Below are positions 13,458-48,937 of a DNA stretch of 64,000 nt, piece by piece. Within the stretch, counting starts at the first letter, position 1. Each line of letters begins with the position of its first letter. The notes beneath the pieces are model-generated. The model did no database searches. It worked only from the letters and a program-made list of their open reading frames with translations, and was not told the DNA's origin. The DNA lies in NCBI GenBank assembly GCA_000611775.1, contig KK106985.1, positions 1,288,291-1,352,290 on the forward strand, written 5' to 3'. Origin of the DNA: Umbilicaria muhlenbergii. Its lineage: Eukaryota > Ascomycota > Lecanoromycetes > Umbilicariales > Umbilicariaceae. The translations under genes and the position numbers were made by a program.

Positions 13458-15038
13458 CTATAAAATAACGCAGAGAAGAACAATGCCCAACAGTCCTAAC
13501 CAAAAATCCAGAACCGGTAACGGCCTTAACGTTGAGCCTTTGCTAACATCAACCCCTGGTGGTAATCGATTCGTCGGTATCGGCAACAGAGTCACGGTAA
13601 CGAGTTCCGTACTCGTACCAATAACAACGTTCGAGGCGGACGGCGCTAACGAGATCGGAGTGCCAGCAACCGTTATAGCCGGTGCGCCAGCACTGAGCGT
13701 CTGACCGGCAACGATGTAGTTAGACATGGCATTCGCGGTGATTGTAGATCCGGCCAAAGTCAATACCGGCAGTACGAGTGTTTGCGTTGGTTTTGTGACG
13801 GTCACCGTGGGTGTGTATGTGGGCGCGAGGGATACCGGCGTACCGGATATAGTGATAGGAGGTGCGCCTGGTACGACTGTTTGGGTTCCGACGACGAATA
13901 CCGATGCGGCGTTGGCAGTGACAGTTGTACCCCCTATCGCCAAGACCGGGGGGGGTGTTGAGGATGCAGAGGGCGCGAGCACTTCGATAGAAGTACCAAG
14001 AACAACGGCGGAGGCAGACGGAGCAAGTGATACTGAAACGCCGGCAACCGTAATGGCTGAGCCACCAGCTGTGATTGTCTGGGTTCCGATTGCGAACACG
14101 GGAACGACTGGCGATGAACTTAATGGTGAGGCTGACGCGGGGCCTGACGAGGAGCCCGATGAGGAGCCCGATGAAGAGACTACTGAGGAGCTTGCGGAAG
14201 AAATGCTAATTAGCACGAGAGGTGGAATCACAGCCGTGCTGGTACCAATAACGGCAATCAAAGAGGATGACAGTTGCGCCGAGGCGGGGGCTTGAACACT
14301 TGATACAGAAGCTACAGAGCTGACAATGCTGGTTGCTGCTGAGCTGATAACAGTTGATGATGCTGAGCTGGGAGTGCTTGCTGCTGCTGAGCTGATAACA
14401 GTTGTTGCTGCTGAACTGGGGGTGCTTGCTGCTGCTGAGCTGATCGCGGTTGTCGTAACTGAGCTGAGAGTGCTTGTTTGTGCTGAGCTAATAGTGGATG
14501 TTGTTACTGGGATACTGGGGGTTGTTGTCGTTGTTATCGCAACTTGTATTGTTGTAGTGGTTGAGAAGGATGAAACGACTGTTGTTGCTTCGCTAGACGC
14601 AGGCGTGCTGATATCAGCGGCTGCGCTTGGAGACGATGTTACCGTAGGCAAAACTGAAGTTGAAGGCCCACTGGAGTTGCTGGTGTAAGGCGAAGCTGGC
14701 GGTGGGGAAGGTACGGGTGCTCCTGCACCGGTTGAAGGAAAGGTTGCCGGTACAGTAATGGCCGCCGCTTGCTGAGCATCAACAAGCGGCGAACAATCAC
14801 TACATGACGCCGAAGAGGTCGTGGATGCTGTGCTTGTTGAGCCCGAGACGGGAGCGGTTGTGGATGCTGCTATTGGAAAGCTTCAGCGTGCTGCTGTTTT
14901 AGAGAATTAAGATCTTCCTCTACCTCCAATTGGACTAACTGCAGCAGTCACACATGACAGTAGTATCGAGAGGGTGAAGAACAGGACCAGAATGCTCTTG
15001 ACAATCGGTCGTCGAGACCTGAAGATCATAGTTGGCAT
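13458..15038 (-). CDS. Ser/Thr-rich secreted repeat protein, probably GPI-anchored
   Basis: Two exons (15038-14924, 14869-13458), 54-bp intron, 508 residues. The start MPTMIFRSRRPIVKSILVLF is a signal peptide; an internal ATG at 15029 is an alternative start. The middle is a Ser/Thr/Ala mucin-like region with near-identical units of the type VISSAAASTPSSA, likely O-glycosylated. The C-terminal part holds about three degenerate repeats built around VVGTQTVVPGAPPITI, GTPVSLAP and VVIGTST. The last 20 residues are hydrophobic with no charged tail (FWLGLLGIVLLCVIL), typical of a GPI signal or terminal anchor. The repeat type occurs in many fungal wall proteins of unknown function. A wall or surface role is inferred. 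Confidence 0.8.
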
Positions 15039-18000
15039 AGCGTAGTATCTTTCAAGCAATTTCAGATAGCGACAGACACCACCACTCTCCGCAACTCAGC
15101 GTCGGAGGAAAATAGTTGCGTGTGCTGGAGGGCTTGAGCAAAGCTTGTATGCGGAGGAGATGAGAAGAAATGCGACAGCGCACATTAAATCAGGTGACTG
15201 AGGCTTTTGCCCAGGAAGTAGCAGGAGCAGCATAAAGGATTAAGAAGAGGGGAACTAGGTGATGTACCCACTTACGTAGCCTGCGTACAACATGAACGAA
15301 TCGATAGGATCGTGGGGTGTCCTCCAACCTTCCAAATTCGGCCGTGCCCTCATCTTTCCCCCGGGTCCAGGCCCGTTGTTAACAGCATGTGCGAGAGACC
15401 GACCAGTCTATGCCGTTAACATCTCATTGGTGCGTTTCGCCGCGGACTTGCTGCTCCCTGCATCTGAAGGATCGGTCGCTGCATAAGGCGTCCAAAGAGA
15501 TGCTTCTGCGTCTGGGGGCTGAAGTGGAGGTCACCCAGCTCGGTCCATGTCAGCTCCGCTCCCCGAACCAGAAACCCGCACAACCAAAGCATATGTACTC
15601 AGGCACGCCCGCTATCCAGGTATCTACCCGCTGATGACGCAGATCAAAATGCGAAATGCGGGATAACTGATGTGGAAGACGAAGCGTGATCTTCCCGACT
15701 AGCATGCGGTAGGCGTACAAGCAAATTGCAGACAGCTTCGATTCCGTCTGGGGTTGAGAGAGCCGCTATCAGAGAGATGTCATCACATCCAGCTGTTGCG
15801 ATAGGTGTGATCGCTTTCCCCGCTTCGAATTCCCTGCACGATGAGTCGGGCGGAGCCGATGTTACGTTGCATGGCCACGGCCCCCAAAGGTCGTGTTTTC
15901 GCAGCCTTGTAGGGTGGTACAGCTCGGAATATTGAGGGGAAGGTAGACTTGGATCTTCAAGCACTTGAGGTCATTGTACATCATTTCTGGATCGAGTCGA
16001 AAGTCCGAAAGGTCCCGCACTCTGCCAAATCATCATCACTTCGCGCACAGCTCGTGGCTTAGGCTGTAGCTCACAAGTCCAGAAATTTCCCACTCGACGT
16101 TGGCTGACGCTGTACCACACATGGCTGATCCACGAAAGCGCCTTAGGACCAATGCCCCTCCTCCTTCCCTCCCACGTCATCGCTGACCCCGCCATCACAC
16201 GGACGTACTGGTGGGCCTGTTTTCTAGATCTAGATTGAAGTGTGGGGTTACACATGGCATTGATACCTCAGTTGGGAGCCACGGTGTTGGCGGGCCCTAC
16301 CTTAGGCCTTGAGTGCAGAAGGGAAATTCCCCAAGAATCTGTCCATCTGTGGACTTGACAAATAATGCGCGGGCTGTGGATAGCACTCCGATACTGTAGC
16401 ACTCATTCACAGCGATGCTCCCAACGTTGGAGGGGCTGCCGTAAATTAGTACGGATAGTGCGCCTTCGTATTATGTATCGCTGTAGGGTACTCGTCACCT
16501 AACGATACACTAGACCTTCGACTGTATAGACGGCCGCGAGGTCGGATTTTGTGGCATAAGAATAGTAGGTAGTTTAAGTGTTACGAGTGGTAAAGGGGCA
16601 TAAGCACGGCCAAGGCCCTCGCCACGTGCTGGACAGCTACGTACCTTCGGGGTTTTCAACTCGGCCAGCACCTATCTTTGATTACTACTGTAAGTAATGT
16701 TCAAAAAGATTGACTGAAGTTCCATGGATAAGAAAGGTTGTGCGAATACTTCGAGTATAGAATGGGGGATGCCAAGTTCGTGCTACGTTGCGATGGCGTC
16801 CAGCAAAAGTGTCGATAAAACTCATATCAAGATTACCTTTGAACCCCGGCAAGCTCTCAATCTAAGCAACATCTTCAAGTCCCGCCAAAAGCGACTTTCT
16901 ACCTCTGTATGTCGGTCACCACAAAATTCTGGAGGAGGAAGTGTTGAAGCACATAGTATTACAGCTTTTGATTGTACTGAAGACGTGATAATATGTTTGT
17001 CTTCAGTCCAGCGAATATTAGTTGCAGTGGTAGCAAAACTTTGTAGCATAGGTCATATGTTCGAAAAGGTAGATTCGTAGATCGTTATTATGTGTTGATG
17101 TCTTATCTTTCTACATTTGACGGGAGACAATAAAACCTATAAGAAAATATAAATTTTCATTAGCTGATTTGGACTGAAAAAGCAGAATGTGATTACACAC
17201 AGCATTAGTAACATTCAGAATACCTTGAACAGCCTGCACTCCTTCGTTCAAACACCGCACCAGGTACTAAAGGCTGTAAATCTAGAAAACACCCCTTGAA
17301 CCACTGACAACTCAGTTTAAAGAGTCTGACGCGGAGAGCCTCATTAACTCCAGCCGTGCTCATGTTCTTTACAAATTCTAAGCTAGGTTTCGAGACACAG
17401 CCCCACAGCCTTTTCTTGACATTTGACTGATGCCTGCTAGCTTCGGTACGGAGCGGGCCGAGTGGCTGACTGCTCGTTTGGACTCGAATATCAAGAATTC
17501 CAAACTCTCAGTACGGTAATTTCAACGACAGGTCTTGACAGTCCTATCACCCTCTCTGTACCTGCTGATACCAGCGCCATGCTTTTAGGTGTAAGCCACG
17601 ATAAGTCCGTCTTTTTGACCGCAGTCGCGTCTGGTTCACCACCAAATCATCTCTTGCGCGCTGGCAGCTTCTACAAAGTTGAAACATTTGTCAATCTTCT
17701 ACACATGGCTTGAACAAACTGCCACTTAATGTTTTGAGTGTACCTGGTTCTTATGCTCATGTAGGGACAACGTGTTTAGGAATGAAATGTGTTACCTCCG
17801 CAAATGGTCTCGTTGGAATGCGGCACTATTTTACCCCGACGTTCGCGGCACCTCGTGGCTGGGAGCTCAGACTTCTGCAGGTCTACACATTCCTGCTGTT
17901 ACTCATAACGACCATAATTGAGATCGTTTGCAGTGTATATTGACAAACTTTACAGCCTTATATGCTCGCTGATGACCTTTAAACCCAACATACTTTCTTG

Positions 18001-18072: not shown

Positions 18073-20393
18073 ATGTTCTGTCGGTGCAGGCTAGGCTTGA
18101 GCGGCTGTATTGTCCTACTCAGTGTGCTGAGGGAATCATTTGCTGCAAGCACAGGCGGGAACTGTCCCTTTCAAAATCCGCTAAACAGAGTCGTAACCAC
18201 AGTCTTTGTGTTGGAATATCAAATCGCCATCAACACCAACGTCATAAAGAACGATTCTTTCGCAGTCAATACTGACCTGACGATCACCGTGGAGAATGCT
18301 CCTACAAGCCTTGATTTCACTACAACCTATACAGAACGTAGCACTGTTGTGAGAACAGCGGCCGGGTAAATAATTCAGACGACACTCTTAACTTATATGC
18401 TAATTTCAATCTAGCGAGGCTACCTCAGGAAGTATCATCCCGAATCTTCCATTCGTGCTCACCATCAACACCATTGGATCAAAGCAGCAACGACGAGGAA
18501 GCGCGATTGAAAACTTCGTAGGGGCCAGCGGAATATCGACGACGTCGTGTACCGACGCTATCACTTACACACTCGTGGGCGGTCAGCTATTTGCGCAAAT
18601 CAACGGCACAACTCAGCAATTCTCCGCAGATGGAGTTTCTCCCTACCAAATTTTTGTACCCAGCAGCACGCCGAGTGCTATAACCACTACGTTCAGCATA
18701 GATCGTACGGGCACACTCCTATGGACCAACGGAACATTTTACAATGGCAACGCACTCTTCTGCATTTTTTCGTCAGGAGTGATCGTGGCTGTTTTTCAAC
18801 TGAATGCACAGCCTTCAGGATGTGTCTTTGTAAATTTAAATATTCTTCAACGTGAGTTTGAGCTACCTCAGGCGTATACTCTTTAATGAGAACTCACATA
18901 TGTCAGTGCCGTCTAATAGTTCTTGTCAATATGTTGGCAATGTAGTAGGGCCAAGTGGCCCGACCGGACCCCAAGGAGTGCCTGGCCCTAGTGGCCCTAG
19001 TGGCCTGAGCGGAGGGCAAGGGGTTCCAGGCCCTAGTGGTCCGAGCGGAGGGCAAGGGCTGCCTGGGCCTAGTGGACCCCAAGGAGTGCCTGGCCCTAGT
19101 GGCCCCCAGGGCCCTGCCGGGCCGACTGGCCTTCAAGGTGAGCTTTTCTATTCTTTGGACCGCAGCTTCACAGTTTTATATTAACCTTACTGTAAGGTAT
19201 TCCGGGGATTTCTGGTCCGTCTGGACCTTCAGGACCAACTGGCCTTCAAGGTGAGTTCTCTTATACTTTTCACTGCAGCTGTAGTATTTTGTATTAACTT
19301 AATTGTTAGGAATTCAGGGTAGCTCTGGTCCGTCTGGGCCTCCAGGACCAACTGGCCTTCAAGGTGCGTTCTCCTATTCTTTTCACTGCAGCTGTAGTAT
19401 TTTGTATTAACTTAATTGTTAGGAATTCAGGGTAGCTCTGGTCCGTCTGGGCCTCCAGGACCAACTGGCCTTCAAGGTGCGTTCTCCTATTCTTTTCACT
19501 GCAGCTGTAGTATTTTGTATTAACTTAATTGTTAGGAATTCAGGGTAGCTCTGGTCCGTCTGGGCCTCCAGGACCAACTGGCCTTCAAGGTGCGTTCTCC
19601 TATTCTTTTCACTGCAGCTGTAGTATTTTGTATTAACTTAATTGTTAGGAATTCAGGGTAGCTCTGGTCCGTCTGGGCCTCCAGGCCCAACTGGCCTCCA
19701 AGGTGAATTTTCCTGTTCTTTTCACTGCAGCTGCAGTGTTTTATATTAACTTTACTGTAAGGTATTCCGGGGAATTCCGGTCCGTCCGGCCCTCCAGGAC
19801 CAACTGGCCCTCAAGGTGGGTCTTTCTGTTCTTTCCACTGCCATTGTACTGTCTTGTATTAAAATTATTCCAAGGAATCCAGGGCATTTCTGGTCAAATC
19901 GGTGCGACCGGGCCTACAGGCCCCGCTGGCCCCGCTGGGCCGACTGGGATTGCGTTCGCATACTTAGGATGCTTCTATCAACCGGCCCCAGGATCGATGT
20001 TGGGGACCGGTAGAGTATTGTCAGCGTTTCAGATCACGTCGACCGCGGCCATTGATCAGCTGTGCTCCAGTACGTGTAACTCTCAGAACTACGGTGAGCG
20101 CACTTGAGACTTATCCCATCAGCGTTGACTGACCTTTCTTGTTAGGGTACTTCGGCACGGTCAACAATGGTGCTGGTTCAGGGGATTGTAAGCCATCCCG
20201 TCGTTCGTTTGGTGCTTTCTGCACTTCGCTGACTGGTGCAGGTTATTGTGGCAATGTGACGTCGTCTGTGTCGGTGGCAGGAATTGGCAGTGGTGCTACG
20301 AGTAACACCAATTGCGGCGCTTGCAATGTGGGGGCTGGACAATGTGGTATTCCGACTTCGAACACGATTGCTATTTATGCGAGATCATTCTAG
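18073..20393 (+). CDS. Secreted collagen-like protein with Cys-rich C-terminal domain
   Basis: Eleven exons: 18073-18365, 18415-18851, 18907-19137, six 54-bp exons (19197-19250, 19310-19363, 19423-19476, 19536-19589, 19649-19702, 19762-19815), 19875-20093 and 20146-20393. All phases agree, giving 583 residues. A signal peptide ([19 protein letters not shown]) is followed by a globular domain to about residue 250, an unbroken collagenous run of 65 Gly-X-Y triplets at 258-452 (types GPS, GPT, GVP, GLQ), and a Cys-rich C-terminal domain starting [12 protein letters not shown] that resembles a WSC-type wall-binding module. Each small exon encodes exactly six triplets. Such a protein would form a rod-like trimeric stalk at the cell surface; carbohydrate binding is inferred. 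No prolyl-hydroxylase gene is seen in the window. Confidence 0.88.
19138..19874 (+). repeat. Exon-intron cassette array, 113-bp period
   Basis: Seven 59-bp introns alternate with six 54-bp exons in exact 113-bp register. Introns start at 19138, 19251, 19364, 19477, 19590, 19703 and 19816. The units beginning at 19310, 19423 and 19536 (exon plus following intron) look identical base for base; the outer units differ at a few to many positions. Donors vary (GTGAGC, GTGAGT, GTGCGT three times, GTGAAT, GTGGGT). All exons are phase 1-1, so gain or loss of a unit keeps the frame. Confidence 0.92.
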
Positions 20394-28842: not shown

Positions 28843-29598
28843 TCACCCCCCCTTCCCCAACCTCACAATCTCCGCCTGCCCCACCTCCCACACCCCCTCC
28901 GCCNNNNNNNNNNNNNNNNNNNNNNNNNNNNNNNNNNNNNNNNNNNNNNNNNNNNNNNNNNNNNNNNNNNNNNNNNNNNNNNNNNNNNNNNNNNNNNNNN
29001 NNNNNNNNNNNNNNNNNNNNNNNNNNNNNNNNNNNNNNNNNNNNNNNNNNNNNNNNNNNNNNNNNNNNNNNNNNNNNNNNNNNNNNNNNNNNNNNNNNNN
29101 NNNNNNNNNNNNNNNNNNNNNNNNNNNNNNNNNNNNNNNNNNNNNNNNNNNNNNNNNNNNNNNNNNNNNNNNNNNNNNNNNNNNNNNNNNNNNNNNNNNN
29201 NNNNNNNNNNNNNNNNNNNNNNNNNNNNNNNNNNNNNNNNNNNNNNNNNNNNNNNNNNNNNNNNNNNNNNNNNNNNNNNNNNNNNNNNNNNNNNNNNNNN
29301 NNNNNNNNNNNNNNNNNNNNNNNNNNNNNNNNNNNNNNNNNNNNNNNNNNNNNNNNNNNNNNNNNNNNNNNNNNNNNNNNNNNNNNNNNNNNNNNNNNNN
29401 NNNNNNGGCGGGCGAGGGCGTGGATGGTGGGGTGGGAGGGGTGGGTGAGGAGGGTGTGGAGGATTTGGGTGCCCTGAGAGAGGGGGGGGTAAGGTTAGTG
29501 AGTAGTGGTGGAGGGGTGGGGGGAGGGGAGGGGAGGGAAGGACGGACGACGAGGCCGGTGCAGCCGACGATGGCGGCGGTTATGGGGGGTTCTTCCAT
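28843..29598 (-). CDS. FMP52: FMP52-type atypical short-chain dehydrogenase, interrupted by assembly gap
   Basis: Exon 1 (29598-29548) encodes MEEPPITAAIVGCTGLV. A 74-bp intron (GTCCGT donor, CTCAG acceptor at 29475-29474) joins it to GTQILHTLLTHPSHPTIHAL. Together they form the Rossmann GxxGxxG start of the Fmp52/HTATIP2 family, a mitochondrial outer-membrane-associated NAD(P)-binding protein of about 230 residues. 503 Ns then remove most of the coding sequence. After the gap the frame ends VWEVGQAEIVRLGKGG, matching the usual ending with a hydrophobic-Asp/Glu-Ile-Val-Arg-Leu motif. If the gap length is right, about 228 residues would result. The frame across the gap cannot be checked. Confidence 0.72.
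   Translation of the reverse strand: MEEPPITAAIVGCTGLVVRPSLPSPPPTPPPLLTNLTPPSLRAPKSSTPSSPTPPTPPSTPSPAXXXXXXXXXXXXXXXXXXXXXXXXXXXXXXXXXXXXXXXXXXXXXXXXXXXXXXXXXXXXXXXXXXXXXXXXXXXXXXXXXXXXXXXXXXXXXXXXXXXXXXXXXXXXXXXXXXXXXXXXXXXXXXXXXXXXXXXXXXXXXXXXXXXXXXXXXXXXXXXXXXXXXXXXAEGVWEVGQAEIVRLGKGG
28904..29406. other. Assembly gap (503 N)
   Basis: Undetermined bases inside FMP52. The left flank is strongly C-rich and the right flank strongly G-rich on the plus strand, which may explain why sequencing failed. Confidence 1.
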
Positions 29599-40868: not shown

Positions 40869-43800
40869 TTAGCATCTAGGTCGCGCTGAATCTTCTGGTA
40901 CCGAATCTGCATGCACGGCATCCGTCTTCAAACCATCAAGCCGGTCCTGCTCCTTCGAGATCGGATCATCAAACGGATCTTCAGGCATCGATTTGTACGC
41001 ACCCTCGGGAAACCCCGACACTGGTGCTTGCTCCAACGGCACCGTATCAGCGCTGTAGATACCTCGTTGACGCTTCTCAAACCAGCCGCCCCGCTCCCAT
41101 TCACCCGGTCGATACAGCGAGCTCGCTCGAGTTTCTTCCTCCACGATACCAGAGAGCAAGACGCTCAGCCGCTTGAAGTCGACGGGTTTGAGGACCCATC
41201 CATCGAACCCGCCGTCGATGTAGAGTTGGCGGTCTCTTTCGACCAAGGATGCCGAGACGGCGAAGATGGGCACTCGGCCGTTGAGCGCTGCGCGTGTTGA
41301 TAGTAGTTCCGATGGATGGGTTTTCTCGTATGAGCGGATCATCTTGGTGGAAGTCAGACCGTCGACGATGGGCATCTGGGAAGTCTTATTAGTATAACCA
41401 GGCTGAACTAGGATAGAATCGTCACTGACCTGCATATCCATCAGGACAACATCATACGAGCTGGGCTTGTCACCGTACGCATTGGCACATTCTTCACCAT
41501 TGACGGTTAAGAAGACGTCGTGCCCAACTTTCTCGAGCCTCTTCTTGATGATTTTGCTGTTGATTGGATCGTCTTCCGCAACCAGAACCTGAAGATGATC
41601 AGCTGTTGGAGGTTCCGCTCTCCTGACGGGCTCGTCTGGAATATCGAATAGTACGCGCGCAGTAGTATTAGGAGGAGATGCTAGAGAGTGTGGAGCCGCG
41701 CTCTCATCTTCGGGCATCCGTACAGGTTTTATTGGAGTCCCAGAGTCCCTTACAGTCGCTTGCCCAGGAGTTAAATGCAAAGGTGACTGCAACGATTCAG
41801 CAACTGTGGAAATACCGCGGACTGTCGCCGAACTAGACCGAGAGAGCGGTTTGGGTCGGTTCGAGGAGGAATTTGGCCGCCGCAATGACCGTGACGAGCG
41901 TTGGTCGGTGCCAGTAACCATGTGCGGTTCTTGGATCGCAACGATCAAACGATCAACATCGCTCTTGGCGCTTTTACCGCTGGAACCACTCATGAAACTT
42001 TTCACACTGCTGATGCTATTTGTGCTCTTCATGCTCTCTGAGCTCTTCTTTCGAACTAAGTCCTTACCAGTGTGTTGGCTTTCCCTCTGTGGGCTTTTGT
42101 TCACAAGCATAACCTCTCCCCCTTCTGCTGGGGGTGTTGCCGGATGACCAGCTGGGGGCGCTACACCAGCTGCTTTTGCTCCGTCCGAAATTCTCTGTTC
42201 GTCATCGTGGGGTGGTAGATCGAACCCAAGCTGTATTACAAAGCGAGATCCTTTGCCCTCTTCCGACTTCAAACGCAACTGACCATTCATATTCCGGACA
42301 ACCCTAGCGACGACAGCCAGACCGAGTCCTAGCGTTCGCTTCTCCTCTTTTCCTTGCTTTGTCGTTTTTGGAGAATTTACTGCAAGGCTTTCTGATAGCA
42401 CTTCGTCGGTCTCTTCGGACTGCACTTGTTCGAGGTCTCTGAACAGAGCATCCAGCTTGGTCGGTGACATACCAGCACCTGTATCTTGTACCACAATGTC
42501 AATTTCGACATGTCCCTCAACACGATCGGCAGGCCACAATTCTACCTTGACGGCACCGTTATTTGTGTTTTGAATGGCATTCGCCGTAAGATTAGAAATG
42601 GCCTGGCGTACTCTTCTCTGGTCGCCGACAACAAATTGGGGTAGCCCTGGATGTTCAACAAGCTGGAACTCAATTTGCTTGCGCCTTGCATCGCCCTTGA
42701 AAGCATCCGTTGCTTCTCTGGCGGTCGCTGGGAAGTCGAATGTTTCGTCCCTGATCAGGTCATGTCCTTCCTCCGTCTTTGTCAAGTCGAGTAGATCATT
42801 GATGACGTAAATCAATGACTTCGACGCCGAATGTGATTTGGCCAGATTCTCCCTAGTCTCTTGGTCCAATGCACCCTCTAGAGCTATTTCAAGGTAGTTG
42901 ATGATGGCGTTGAGAGGTGTTCGGACTTCGTGGGCTGAATTCGCCAACAAAAGCCTGGTAAGTTGACTAGTCTGCAAGGCCGCTTCTTTCTGTCTCCATA
43001 CTTCAATGAACTTCCCGTAAACAAGGCAAAGAACAGCAGCGGTTTCTATCTCCTCTTCCGTCCACTCCCTGCATTTACCGATCACAGTCTCGCTCCACAT
43101 CTTGAAACTTTTTCTTGGCTCCAGATAGCCTTCCGTACCCTGTTTGATATATTTCTCATATGGGTTCCCGGCCCATTTGACTTCTCTCAACTGACCCTTG
43201 CGGAAGAACACTATGAAATCAGCACCCCCAACTGACAGAGGCACTAACAGAAGGCCCGCAATTACTGAGAAGCCAGGTTCGTATCGGAGATCTGGGAAGT
43301 CAATACGGATGTCATGGGATGTTAAGACTGAGGTCGTTTTTCGAAGTCGTAAGTATTCAAGTAGGGCAAGTGCCTCTTGCGACTGTTCCAGGTGACCAAG
43401 AATTTTGGTTTCGCCACGTATTGACAGCAAGCCGTAGTCGGCATCGAAGAGTTTGAGTAGGTCATCGGAAGACGCGATTATATATCCAGATGGATTATGC
43501 TCTGTAGGCGCAGTGTTGATAAGCTTGCGAGCCTGCAGCCTGGAAGCGTACGAGAGTCGTTCAATATTCCTTGACGCTGAGTCTCCAACCAGTCGACACA
43601 TTTTCCGTATGGGAAAGGATACTCTCATTCCTTTCGAGCCATAAGAGTGGCATGCGATGAGACCCCACAGCTCACTGAATGCGTTTATCGAGATCGACAT
43701 CGACGCTCTTACAGCCATGTTGGCCAGATACTTGAGATGTATGGGCGACATGGCTCGGAGGTATGCATGGGTCAAGTCCAAAGGGGTCTCGAGGTCCTCC

Positions 43801-45455: not shown

Positions 45456-47125
45456 CTTGAAAATATGGCCAGCAGCCTTCTGTGCGGTTCGCTATCCTAA
45501 CCAGGTCGGAGGGTTGGTCTCCGCAACCAAATGTACAGATCCACTCAATGACTCTTGCGCAACAGCCTAGAAAGGCCTCTTATGCAATCAATCAGAGCTG
45601 GTTCTTACCGATGAACCGTTCCCTCGCGCATCAGCCGCCAAGACATCGGAACGCAAAGAAGGTAGAAACTGGTGGACTTGGCGAAGGGACAAGTGTCAGT
45701 GGGAGAGGCTAGAGGCACCGGTCGGACCAGCAGTCGAGAAAAGGAAGTTTGGCAAGAGTCACACCGCTCCTACCTTTGCGGGGCATTTGATAATGACAGT
45801 CAAGCGGCGGTGTGGGTATCATGGTCGAAGGTCGCCGCTGGAGCAAAAGAACATGTGCGCATGGTCTAGATTGGTGGCGTCAAGCTTTACATTAAGGTTT
45901 AGCGGCGCGATGGGGCACCCAAGAGGCTACCTTACGCACACTAAGGTACGGTACTCGTCCTTGTACGCCGTACTTGTACCTGAGGAGTCCTTGTACGTCG
46001 TAGCGTGGCTGCGTGGCTGCGTGGCTAACATCCTCGGGGAGGATGAAGGAAAACGGAGGAGGCCCGCTTCGCTTCCGGCATTTACGGACTTAGCTCCGTC
46101 AAGCAGGACCCTGAAAAAGTGGCATCAGTGCCGCTGTCATGCTTCATCAACGTGCCCCATCCAGAACATGACATATGACCGTTGCGCCATAGACGTGACG
46201 GCTTGGCACCTAAGCTCAGAGTACCGGAAGTCTTCATGCACCTCTCCATGCACCATGTATTGAATCGTTGAGACATTTCATTTATGTAGCGTAGAAGTTC
46301 TGAGGCTGAACGTGTTGCCTATCCATGGCAAGACTTGAGTGGCCCAAATCAAGACCATATAGCATAAACTCATGAATACCGACGAGTATTATGTAAACCT
46401 CCTGAAGCAGAGAAAGAAAACAGAAAATGAATCAAAGATAAATAAAAGACAAATAAAAGACAAATCATCATAGATCGATGATAAATAAAAGACGAATAGA
46501 AGATAGATAAAAGATGACTGGAAGACAAATAAAAGATGGCATGAATAGCAGATAGATAAAAGGCACATAGAGGAAGGATAGAAGATGAATTGAAGAAGGA
46601 CAGAATGAGTCTCCTAGTCTGATCTAGGATACTGCATCTTCCACAACCGCCATTTCTTGCTTGGATTCACAAGCGTGGCGAGCCACCCTCGCCACTATTG
46701 ATCAACGTCACTATCACCACGCAGCGCCCACAGCTCAAATCTTGCCTAATCTGAAGCGTTGCATCATCCAAGGGGGTGTTCTGAGTTGTCGTCCAGGAGC
46801 CGACACGATCGTGCCTGCCCATGCGACAAAGCCCATCGTTGCAACAATGCCCATTGACAACCATCAATCAGTGCGAGCGCTTTTATACATAACACACATA
46901 TCTGCCGGGCCTTACGAAAGATAGCACGTTGATCTCATCAACCCCTTGGCATCCTTTGCTGTGGCGTCTGGCTTTCTCAGGATCACTTACTGAATACTTC
47001 GAAAAAGCACTCTGGGGAATTCGCCACCCAGGCGAACACCTGGAAAGTCAGAGACATACCGCCCCTTGGACTGCCAATTTCTTCGGCATTCTGATCCCCG
47101 ATCCTTTTACCCGTGCTTCATCAGG
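45456..47125. other. Divergent intergenic region with an A/G-rich repeat tract
   Basis: 1.7 kb between two divergent genes. 46420-46600 is a purine-rich tract with the decamer AAATAAAAGA and variants many times. No gene supported. Confidence 0.5.
46420..46600 (+). repeat. Imperfect AAATAAAAGA-type tandem repeat
   Basis: Units of 10-13 bases (AAATAAAAGA, AGATAAAAGATG, GAATAGAAGA and similar) recur about a dozen times with drift. The top strand is almost pyrimidine-poor; possible intrinsically bent or nucleosome-free DNA between two divergent promoters. Confidence 0.65.
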
Positions 47126-48937
47126 ATGGTCTCTGAAGCTGCCAGCATGCAGAAGCGCTTCCACGTGCTAGTTATCCAGGATGGGGCTCTACAACACCAG
47201 ACCGCTAAGAAGATCTTAAGCTATTTTGATAACCACGTCAATATTATTGTCAGAGCCATGACATGTTCTCTGTACAACGCTAGCGACTACGCTCAAACAT
47301 CTACTGTGGAAGAATACAACTTTGACGACCTGAATTATGAGTTGATACAAGGCATAACTCACTTGCGGCCGAGCACTGTCCTACTTTCTAAATGGGCCGA
47401 TCTCCTGGTAGTGGCACCAGTCAAAGCAGACACAATCGCGAAAATGCTCCATGGATTCTCAGATAGCATTTTATTGGAGATTCTGCGGTTATGGGATGTC
47501 TCGAAGAAGATCTTACTCGTACCTGGGATGTCAATTGCAATGTGGGAAAACCCTATGACAGAAAAGCAGCTAAACAAGATTCGACGGAAGTGGAATTGGA
47601 TTCGCGTCCTTGAACCAGTGCTATGGAACCACAGTAAAGGAGAAGAGTTTGCTATGACCGGGTGGAACGGTCTGGAGGAGCTCGTCCAGAATGTAGAGAA
47701 CCAAGCCGATCTCATGACTATAGGCCGCGAGGTGGACACCATGGCAGGCCTAAGTTCCCATTTACCAAATCCTTTTTTCCTTAATAACATCCAATTGCCC
47801 CCGGAGATCTGGTCGATCATATTGCAGAACGTTGGAGACTGGGAAGTGGCTAAGTCGCTCGGGATCTATACCACCCTTCCGGTGCCACAAGAATGGCAAG
47901 GACCCAAAGGCACGGATGGACCCCGGGATTTCATGAAACACTTGGAATGGATCATCTTGACAGGGAAACACCCGGACATCATCAAACACCTTCGTTCTGG
48001 CCCACCGCAGAAATTGCTATCCAGACTATGCGTGAAACTCGTCATCAAATTCGGCCTTACAGACCTCCTCTCATATCTGGAGACCCACTTCTTCGATCTA
48101 TTTTGGTACTCTTTCGGGCATACACTGCTACCAGATAAAGCTTCCGCCTCCTTTGGCCGCACATGCATCTTGGAATGGTGGCGTACCTCTCCCTCCTTCC
48201 TCAACAAAGAGTACACATCCGAAGCGATCGATGGTGCCTCTAAAGCCGGCTTTATCCAAGTCCTGGATTGGTGGCGAGACTCAGGCCTCACCCTGCGTTA
48301 TACCGAAGCTGCCCTCGAACAGGCGAGCTCGAAGGGCAAGATTGAAGTTCTGGAATGGTGGCACAAAGCTTCACTTCACGACGAAAGTCAGCGACTTGTT
48401 GACTCTGGTAGCTCGCATCAACGGCAAGGGAGCCCTCGCCTTCAAAGAAGTACCACATGGCCCAATCCCAGTGCTGCAGTATCACAGCACCAACTCGGTA
48501 ACCGTTCTGCCCTACCGCAACCCATCCCCCTCAAGGTTGGTAAGTCCCTAATCTCTGCTGCACAAAACGGTCAAGCAACAGCGGTCCGCTGGTGGGCCGT
48601 GTCCGGCGTTCCGTTACTGCACGAAGAGAGTGTGCCTAAAATTGCGTCTGCGGCTGGTCATGTCAACGTACTACAGGTGTGGAAAGAATTAAAGGGCGAC
48701 AAAATGAGCTTTGACAACCAAGTTTTGGTTGCCGCAACGAAAAACGGGCACGCAGAAGTCCTAGAGTGGTGGCGAAGAAGTGGCTTCAGGGTCGAGTACA
48801 AAACTTGCGATATTGAAGAGGCGCTGGAGGATAGTCTGGGAGGAGAAGGCGAGCGAAAGGTTCGGGGCTGGTGGGCAAGGAACGGCTTGAACTTGGGAGT
48901 AGGTACGAGTGAGTGGATGAAGGTCAAAGTCCTTTGA
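47126..48937 (+). CDS. HFCD flavoprotein-like domain fused to LEWW ankyrin-like repeats
   Basis: Single frame, 603 residues from the ATG at 47126; ATG 47147 is also possible. Residues 1-200 resemble Hal3/phosphopantothenoylcysteine decarboxylase: KWADLLVVAPVKADTIAKML, VPGMSIAMWENPMT, FAMTGWNGLEELV. Key catalytic features are altered: the active-site His position before RRWAD reads Thr, the PAMN motif is PGMS, and the Cys-containing ACGDYG loop is replaced (EPVLWNHSKG). An F-box-like stretch LPPEIWSIILQNVGDW follows, then ankyrin-like repeats marked by ILEWW, VLDWW, VLEWW, VRWW and VLEWW. A flavin-binding, non-catalytic regulator or adaptor is inferred. About 48390-48540 departs from the repeat pattern and might hold an unrecognised intron. 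Confidence 0.72.
   Translation: MVSEAASMQKRFHVLVIQDGALQHQTAKKILSYFDNHVNIIVRAMTCSLYNASDYAQTSTVEEYNFDDLNYELIQGITHLRPSTVLLSKWADLLVVAPVKADTIAKMLHGFSDSILLEILRLWDVSKKILLVPGMSIAMWENPMTEKQLNKIRRKWNWIRVLEPVLWNHSKGEEFAMTGWNGLEELVQNVENQADLMTIGREVDTMAGLSSHLPNPFFLNNIQLPPEIWSIILQNVGDWEVAKSLGIYTTLPVPQEWQGPKGTDGPRDFMKHLEWIILTGKHPDIIKHLRSGPPQKLLSRLCVKLVIKFGLTDLLSYLETHFFDLFWYSFGHTLLPDKASASFGRTCILEWWRTSPSFLNKEYTSEAIDGASKAGFIQVLDWWRDSGLTLRYTEAALEQASSKGKIEVLEWWHKASLHDESQRLVDSGSSHQRQGSPRLQRSTTWPNPSAAVSQHQLGNRSALPQPIPLKVGKSLISAAQNGQATAVRWWAVSGVPLLHEESVPKIASAAGHVNVLQVWKELKGDKMSFDNQVLVAATKNGHAEVLEWWRRSGFRVEYKTCDIEEALEDSLGGEGERKVRGWWARNGLNLGVGTSEWMKVKVL

Follow-up and report, generated by a model that had tools for sequence, protein, structure and literature searches.

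The closest described genes are fungal. In Cryptococcus neoformans, the gene CNN00420 contains repeats of about 107 nt, each made of exon ends and a whole intron; its introns 3–5 are identical, and intron 2 is one change away (Sharpton et al. 2008, PMC2395259). Splicing of CNN00420 is supported by ESTs, the number of repeats varies between strains, and short in-exon repeats of about 39 nt adjoin the intron-bearing ones (PMC2395259). In Coccidioides, the SOWgp gene carries nearly identical exon-plus-intron repeats that evolve by unequal crossing-over, and the homogenised centre of the repeat is given as support (Johannesson et al. 2005, as cited in PMC2576457). Thus, the amplification of exon and intron as one cassette is a mechanism already known in fungi. 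An earlier note on the locus described here had known of no fungal example, and on this point the available text of both sources contradicts it.

In animals, the SmPoMuc genes of Schistosoma contain a 27-bp exon which is repeated in tandem together with its flanking introns, about 1 kb per unit, with an intronic part that is more than 94% identical (PMC2576457). For the fibrillar collagens, Yamada et al. (1980), as presented in PMC2852846, proposed that the genes arose by duplication of one unit holding a 54-bp exon with six Gly-X-Y triplets. Among the matches listed in open-licence PubMed Central text, we found no fungal collagen with exon–intron cassettes, and the retrieved portions of PMC5560861, PMC12237271 and PMC1553488 hold nothing that bears on fungal collagen gene structure. 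As far as we searched the literature, what is new in the gene described below is that a fungal collagen, with split Gly codons, repeats the amplification of a 54-bp exon that has been proposed for animal collagens.

Results

We analysed 64,000 nucleotides of contig KK106985.1 of the ascomycete Umbilicaria muhlenbergii (assembly GCA_000611775.1, positions 1,288,291 to 1,352,290); this whole stretch is called the window, and all positions are counted from its first letter. An 11-exon gene was modelled on the + strand at 18073–20393, and after splicing it has a single open frame of 583 amino acids from ATG to stop. Exon 1 (18073–18365) carries the start codon, a likely signal peptide and the beginning of the N-terminal region, and exon 2 (18415–18851) carries the bulk of the DUF7908 domain. 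They are separated by intron 1 (18366–18414; 49 nt, phase 2), which has a CTAAT branch-like site 11 nt from its 3' end. Intron 2 (18852–18906; 55 nt, phase 1) is followed by exon 3 (E3, 18907–19137), where the Gly-X-Y tract begins. The last ~34 bp of E3 resemble the 3' part of the repeated exon of the array that follows. Downstream of the array, the first ~20 bp of exon 10 (E10, 19875–20093) resemble the 5' part of the same exon; in E10 the Gly-X-Y tract ends and a Cys-rich C-terminal domain begins. Intron 10 (20094–20145; 52 nt, phase 1) leads to exon 11 (20146–20393) with the remainder of this domain and the stop codon. By eye, introns 1, 2 and 10 are unrelated to the introns of the array. 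The neighbouring open reading frames 17441–17713 and 17683–17943 have no Pfam match.

The product appears to be a secreted collagen-like protein in which the array encodes a stalk. An N-terminal signal peptide is likely, as judged by eye. The DUF7908 match (Pfam PF25485, E = 1.1e-34) covers residues 110–242, and the Collagen match (Pfam PF01391, E = 5.2e-29) scores 100.2 bits against a curated cut-off of 27.2. DUF7908 is an ascomycete family. The Gly-X-Y tract consists of 66 unbroken triplets (residues 258–455), 36 of which come from the six repeated exons. Up to E = 1, Pfam finds nothing in the 583-residue protein beyond DUF7908 and Collagen, including no COLFI domain (the fibrillar C-propeptide). 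Up to the same threshold, the Cys-rich C-terminal 129 residues match no Pfam family, including the C4/NC1 domain of collagen IV, and up to E = 10 no solved structure matches them. A WSC-like reading of this domain, made by eye, was rejected because Pfam gives it no support. Single-sequence structure prediction of the DUF7908 exon gave a mean pLDDT of 34.6 and was set aside. Scanning a collection of genome contigs for peptides of the DUF7908 region yielded 44 pattern hits, and scanning viral contigs yielded 13 for the C-terminal domain and 18 for the DUF7908 region; none was confirmed as a relative. These scans say little about fungi, since the collections consist of prokaryotes and viruses.

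The array begins at the 5' end of cassette intron 1 and finishes at the 3' end of cassette intron 7, which is exactly the span 19138–19874 given by the earlier note. Its seven introns lie at 19138–19196, 19251–19309, 19364–19422, 19477–19535, 19590–19648, 19703–19761 and 19816–19874, and the six exons between them at 19197–19250, 19310–19363, 19423–19476, 19536–19589, 19649–19702 and 19762–19815, all on the + strand. Every intron is 59 nt long and has GT...AG ends (7/7); every inner exon has 54 bp, phase 1-1 and six triplets (6/6). All cassette introns are in phase 1, so each junction splits a Gly codon as G|GN. The exons contain 60% G+C and the introns 34%. Tandem Repeats Finder reports 19125–19862 with a period of 113, 6.5 copies, 89% matches and 0% indels, and its score of 1056 is the highest of the 29 rows in the window. 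The unit proposed in the earlier note, a 54-bp exon plus a 59-bp intron with a period of exactly 113 bp over seven introns, was thus confirmed.

The copies in the centre of the array are identical. Cassette introns 3, 4 and 5 agree at 59/59 positions and cassette exons 2, 3 and 4 at 54/54, so that three successive units, each taken as an exon with the intron behind it, are the same, as had been claimed. Cassette intron 2 differs from introns 3–5 at three sites, and exon 5 differs from exons 2–4 at two sites, both synonymous. The edge units (introns 1, 6 and 7; exons 1 and 6) have diverged: between each of these three introns and any other there are 10–20 differences in 59 positions, and intron 7 is the most diverged. 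The perfect self-match at lag 113 extends over 19266–19572; therefore 420 bp (19266–19685, 3.7 copies) are perfectly periodic, which bears out the reading that exons and introns were copied together, and recently in the centre. Among exact repeats of at least 40 bp at lags of 40–399 in the whole window, only this block at lag 113 and its multiples 226 and 339 were found. A 39-base pattern written from the exons of the array has six matches, all within the array, and none in 100 shuffles. The TpA/ApT ratio (RIP index) is 1.47 in the array and 0.69 in the window, a value we leave uninterpreted because repeated AT-rich introns alone can raise it.

The earlier note had also stated that the Gly-X-Y repeat is not a simple in-exon minisatellite. 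This is correct for the cassette array. It does not extend to the adjoining upstream exon (18907–19137), in which minisatellite-like repeats of 45, 36 and 27 bp, all multiples of 9, occupy 18954–19123.

Elsewhere in the window, a 48-bp (24-bp) tandem repeat lies at 14317–14496 in a − strand open reading frame for a Ser/Thr/Ala-rich protein with no Pfam match, and an AT-rich 11/22-bp tandem repeat of the type AATAAAAGATA lies at 46430–46537. The open reading frame at 46994–48937 has an N-terminal Pfam Flavoprotein match joined to a long tail; this tail has no Pfam match and was judged ankyrin-like by eye only.

How the centre became uniform admits more than one answer. The array may be real while unequal crossing-over had no part in its uniform centre, which would have been homogenised by gene conversion or made by replication slippage. 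We consider this quite possible, though on balance we doubt it. These processes are indistinguishable from sequence alone; for the similar Cryptococcus gene, Sharpton et al. name unequal crossing-over, gene conversion and strand slippage, and propose slippage (PMC2395259). On the other side, the gradient from identical centre to diverged edges has been taken as a sign of unequal crossing-over in SOWgp (PMC2576457), and the upstream in-exon repeats suggest that copy-number change occurs in this gene. Neither observation is decisive.

An error of assembly is unlikely. It would leave the array in existence and make the count of identical units wrong, by expansion or collapse. The 420 bp of perfect periodicity exceed the length of a short read, and the window contains a gap of 503 N (28904–29406); the assembly is therefore a scaffold and may show too many or too few identical units. 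Against this, at least four unit types (units 1, 2 and 6 and the exon 5 variant) can be distinguished by private differences, which rules out a duplicated contig end as their source. Moreover, assemblers usually collapse identical repeats and do not expand them, which counts against an expansion artefact.

We also assessed whether the cassette segments look like introns of a translated gene. Across the six cassette exons, 12/54 columns are variable; by codon position the counts are 1/18 (first), 3/18 (second) and 8/18 (third). In cassette introns 1–6, 21/59 columns vary. Third codon positions vary more than positions 1 and 2 (Fisher p = 0.012), introns likewise vary more than positions 1 and 2 (p = 0.009), and no difference was seen between introns and third positions (p = 0.58); all p values are approximate because the copies share ancestry. 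The clustering of exon changes at third positions is consistent with a translated gene.

A branch-like site lies 12 nt from the 3' end of each cassette intron; it is TTAAC in six of the seven and the weaker TTAAA in the last. We compared them with seven introns of neighbouring genes, which are 47–64 nt long and all carry CTAAY or CTGAC 10–16 nt from the end (7/7); these were hand-picked where the protein seemed to continue and thus selected partly on their signals, and two weaker candidates were omitted, namely the first DBF4 junction with its 41-nt segment and another within the F-box gene. The TTAAC of the cassette is less canonical than the sites of these introns. The seven cassette donors fall at the 95th–99th percentile among all GTNNNN of the window, as scored with a matrix from 10 introns (the seven of neighbouring genes and the three others of this gene). 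Retention of any one of the 10 introns of the gene leads to a stop inside that intron. In the cassette introns the TAA within the branch-like site supplies this stop (7/7), which is one inherited feature and not seven independent events. The claim of the earlier note that the phase 1-1 exons keep the frame only as long as splicing works agrees with these results, and we infer that the cassette introns are spliced.

It is very improbable that the locus is degenerate or unexpressed, with its segments unspliced and the gene dead: the frame is open across 11 exons, the variation between exons is concentrated at third positions, and GT, AG and the branch-like site are kept in all seven copies, in the last one weakly. 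Introners can yield near-identical introns, but their insertion one by one into a pre-existing in-exon Gly-X-Y minisatellite is even harder to credit, as the exons were copied with the introns at constant spacing, a 43-base intron core allowed up to 3 mismatches matches only four places in the 64-kb window, all in the array, and the other three introns of the gene look unrelated to it.

The neighbouring genes of the window include a DFP1/DBF4-like gene, an F-box gene and, on the − strand, an open reading frame for a phytochrome-type histidine kinase. In the latter, a 54-nt in-frame GT...AG segment with a CTAAT branch-like site (41376–41429) interrupts the receiver domain. It is probably an intron that goes unnoticed in the open frame, since its length is divisible by three. 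Together with the short introns carrying CTAAY or CTGAC sites and with DUF7908, the histidine kinase and the DFP1/DBF4-like gene point to a fungal source.

To see where the 54-bp exon may come from, we compared it with the exons on both sides of the array. The 3'-terminal 27 bp of the cassette exon and those of the upstream exon agree at 22/27 positions in units 1, 2 and 6, and other in-register places of the upstream exon give at most 18. When the 5'-terminal 21 bp are set against those of the downstream exon, 17/21 positions agree in units 1 and 2 and 15/21 in unit 6; other places tried give at most 13. A chimera of the E10 head and the E3 tail, with the breakpoint at 20–21 bp, matches 41/54 positions both for exon 1 and for exons 2–4. 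In both cases it ranks first among 144 register combinations, which are not mutually independent, and the best controls reach 37 and 38. A whole unit drawn from E3 instead gives 35 for exon 1 and 34 for exons 2–4. For exon 5 the chimera reaches 40/54 and again ranks first of 144, leading the best control (38) by only two matches. For exon 6 it reaches 39, ties with one control and ranks second of 144, and 38 matches are obtained even by a control in which neither flank is the right one.

Thus, the 54-bp exons look as if their first ~20 bp derived from the start of the downstream exon and their remaining ~34 bp from the end of the upstream one; the signal is clear in units 1–4 and weak in units 5–6. 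An array of this kind could have begun with a single tandem duplication of 113 bp that spanned one intron. The end of one exon (~34 bp), the 59-nt intron and the start of the next exon (~20 bp) add up to 113 bp, and if this segment was duplicated once in tandem, a first 54-bp exon and another copy of the intron would result together. Recombination or slippage between homologous units would then add copies, and the most recent round of growth would have left the identical units in the centre. In the reverse reading, the array arose in some other way, and the E3 tail and the E10 head could be outer units of it that have eroded.

Discussion

We think it very probable that the array described here codes for a triple-helix stalk that grew through successive tandem duplications of a 113-bp exon-plus-intron cassette in a fungal gene. 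Along a collagen triple helix the rise is 0.286 nm per residue. Given splicing, each unit gained or lost would change the stalk by 18 residues, or ~5 nm of triple helix, and keep the frame.

The gene shares the features of the CNN00420 and SOWgp kind. Its repeat unit consists of a complete intron plus a coding length divisible by three, its introns are near-identical (three of seven identical, a fourth at 3/59 differences), and its centre is more homogeneous than its edges. The likeness to CNN00420, as far as the accessible text of PMC2395259 describes it, includes an intron-containing repeat in a fungal gene, identical introns 3–5 and in-exon repeats alongside. In contrast to CNN00420, with its unit of about 107 nt and its demonstrated transcripts and strain variation, the unit here has 113 bp and codes for collagen triplets. 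Repeated exons, near-identical introns and a homogenised centre are shared with SOWgp, which is also a fungal surface protein. Unlike the present product, SOWgp is not described as a collagen in the available portion of PMC2576457; its repeat-number polymorphism has been shown. MCL1 of Metarhizium is likewise a fungal collagen-like surface protein, compared here by its description in the consulted part of PMC7341153.

The comparison with animals shows likeness to two collagen families. All six cassette exons have the 54 bp and six triplets of animal fibrillar collagen exons. The exons of the Yamada model start with an intact Gly codon in phase 0 (according to the excerpted text of PMC2852846), whereas all seven cassette introns are in phase 1 and split the Gly codon. 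The gene further differs from the fibrillar collagens in that Pfam finds no COLFI and in that its near-identical introns still show recent copying. Gly codons split at exon junctions are also reported for collagen IV, in the part of PMC5395295 that we drew on, but Pfam finds no C4/NC1 domain in the present protein. We file the gene under neither animal family, because both the COLFI and the C4 domain are lacking by Pfam. Rather, it resembles the amplification proposed for the ancestral collagen and, we infer, arose independently of it.

Among other animal genes, the spider silk gene Flag and MaSp2 of Argiope likewise code for repetitive structural proteins and consist of exon-plus-intron units with strongly homogenised introns, as the passages taken from PMC3522626 and PMC9779670 relate. 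The present gene differs from them in coding for a collagen, and its introns have 59 nt against 496–2620 bp in other silk genes (PMC3522626). SmPoMuc resembles it in the tandem repetition of a small exon with an intron; unlike it, SmPoMuc is an animal multigene family coding for mucins, for which the authors, in the excerpt used, favour gene conversion (PMC2576457).

A further-reaching reading is that the gene is an independent and recent fungal re-run of the exon amplification of animal collagens, in which one tandem duplication spanning an intron created a 54-bp exon de novo, and in which expansion goes on today, the stalk changing in steps of 18 residues kept in frame by splicing alone. We put this forward tentatively; it may well be true, but we hold slightly more doubt than belief. 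Surprise about the mechanism itself is lowered, since the Cryptococcus and Coccidioides cases are known.

The growth of animal collagen genes under the Yamada model is ancient and can no longer be watched. In the present gene the central introns and exons are still identical, and therefore the steps may be read from it: an origin across one intron, expansion in the central part and erosion at the edges of the array. If unit counts differ among relatives or isolates, the assembly of a collagen by exon–intron duplication would become directly testable outside animals, and so would the role of introns as frame-preserving spacers.
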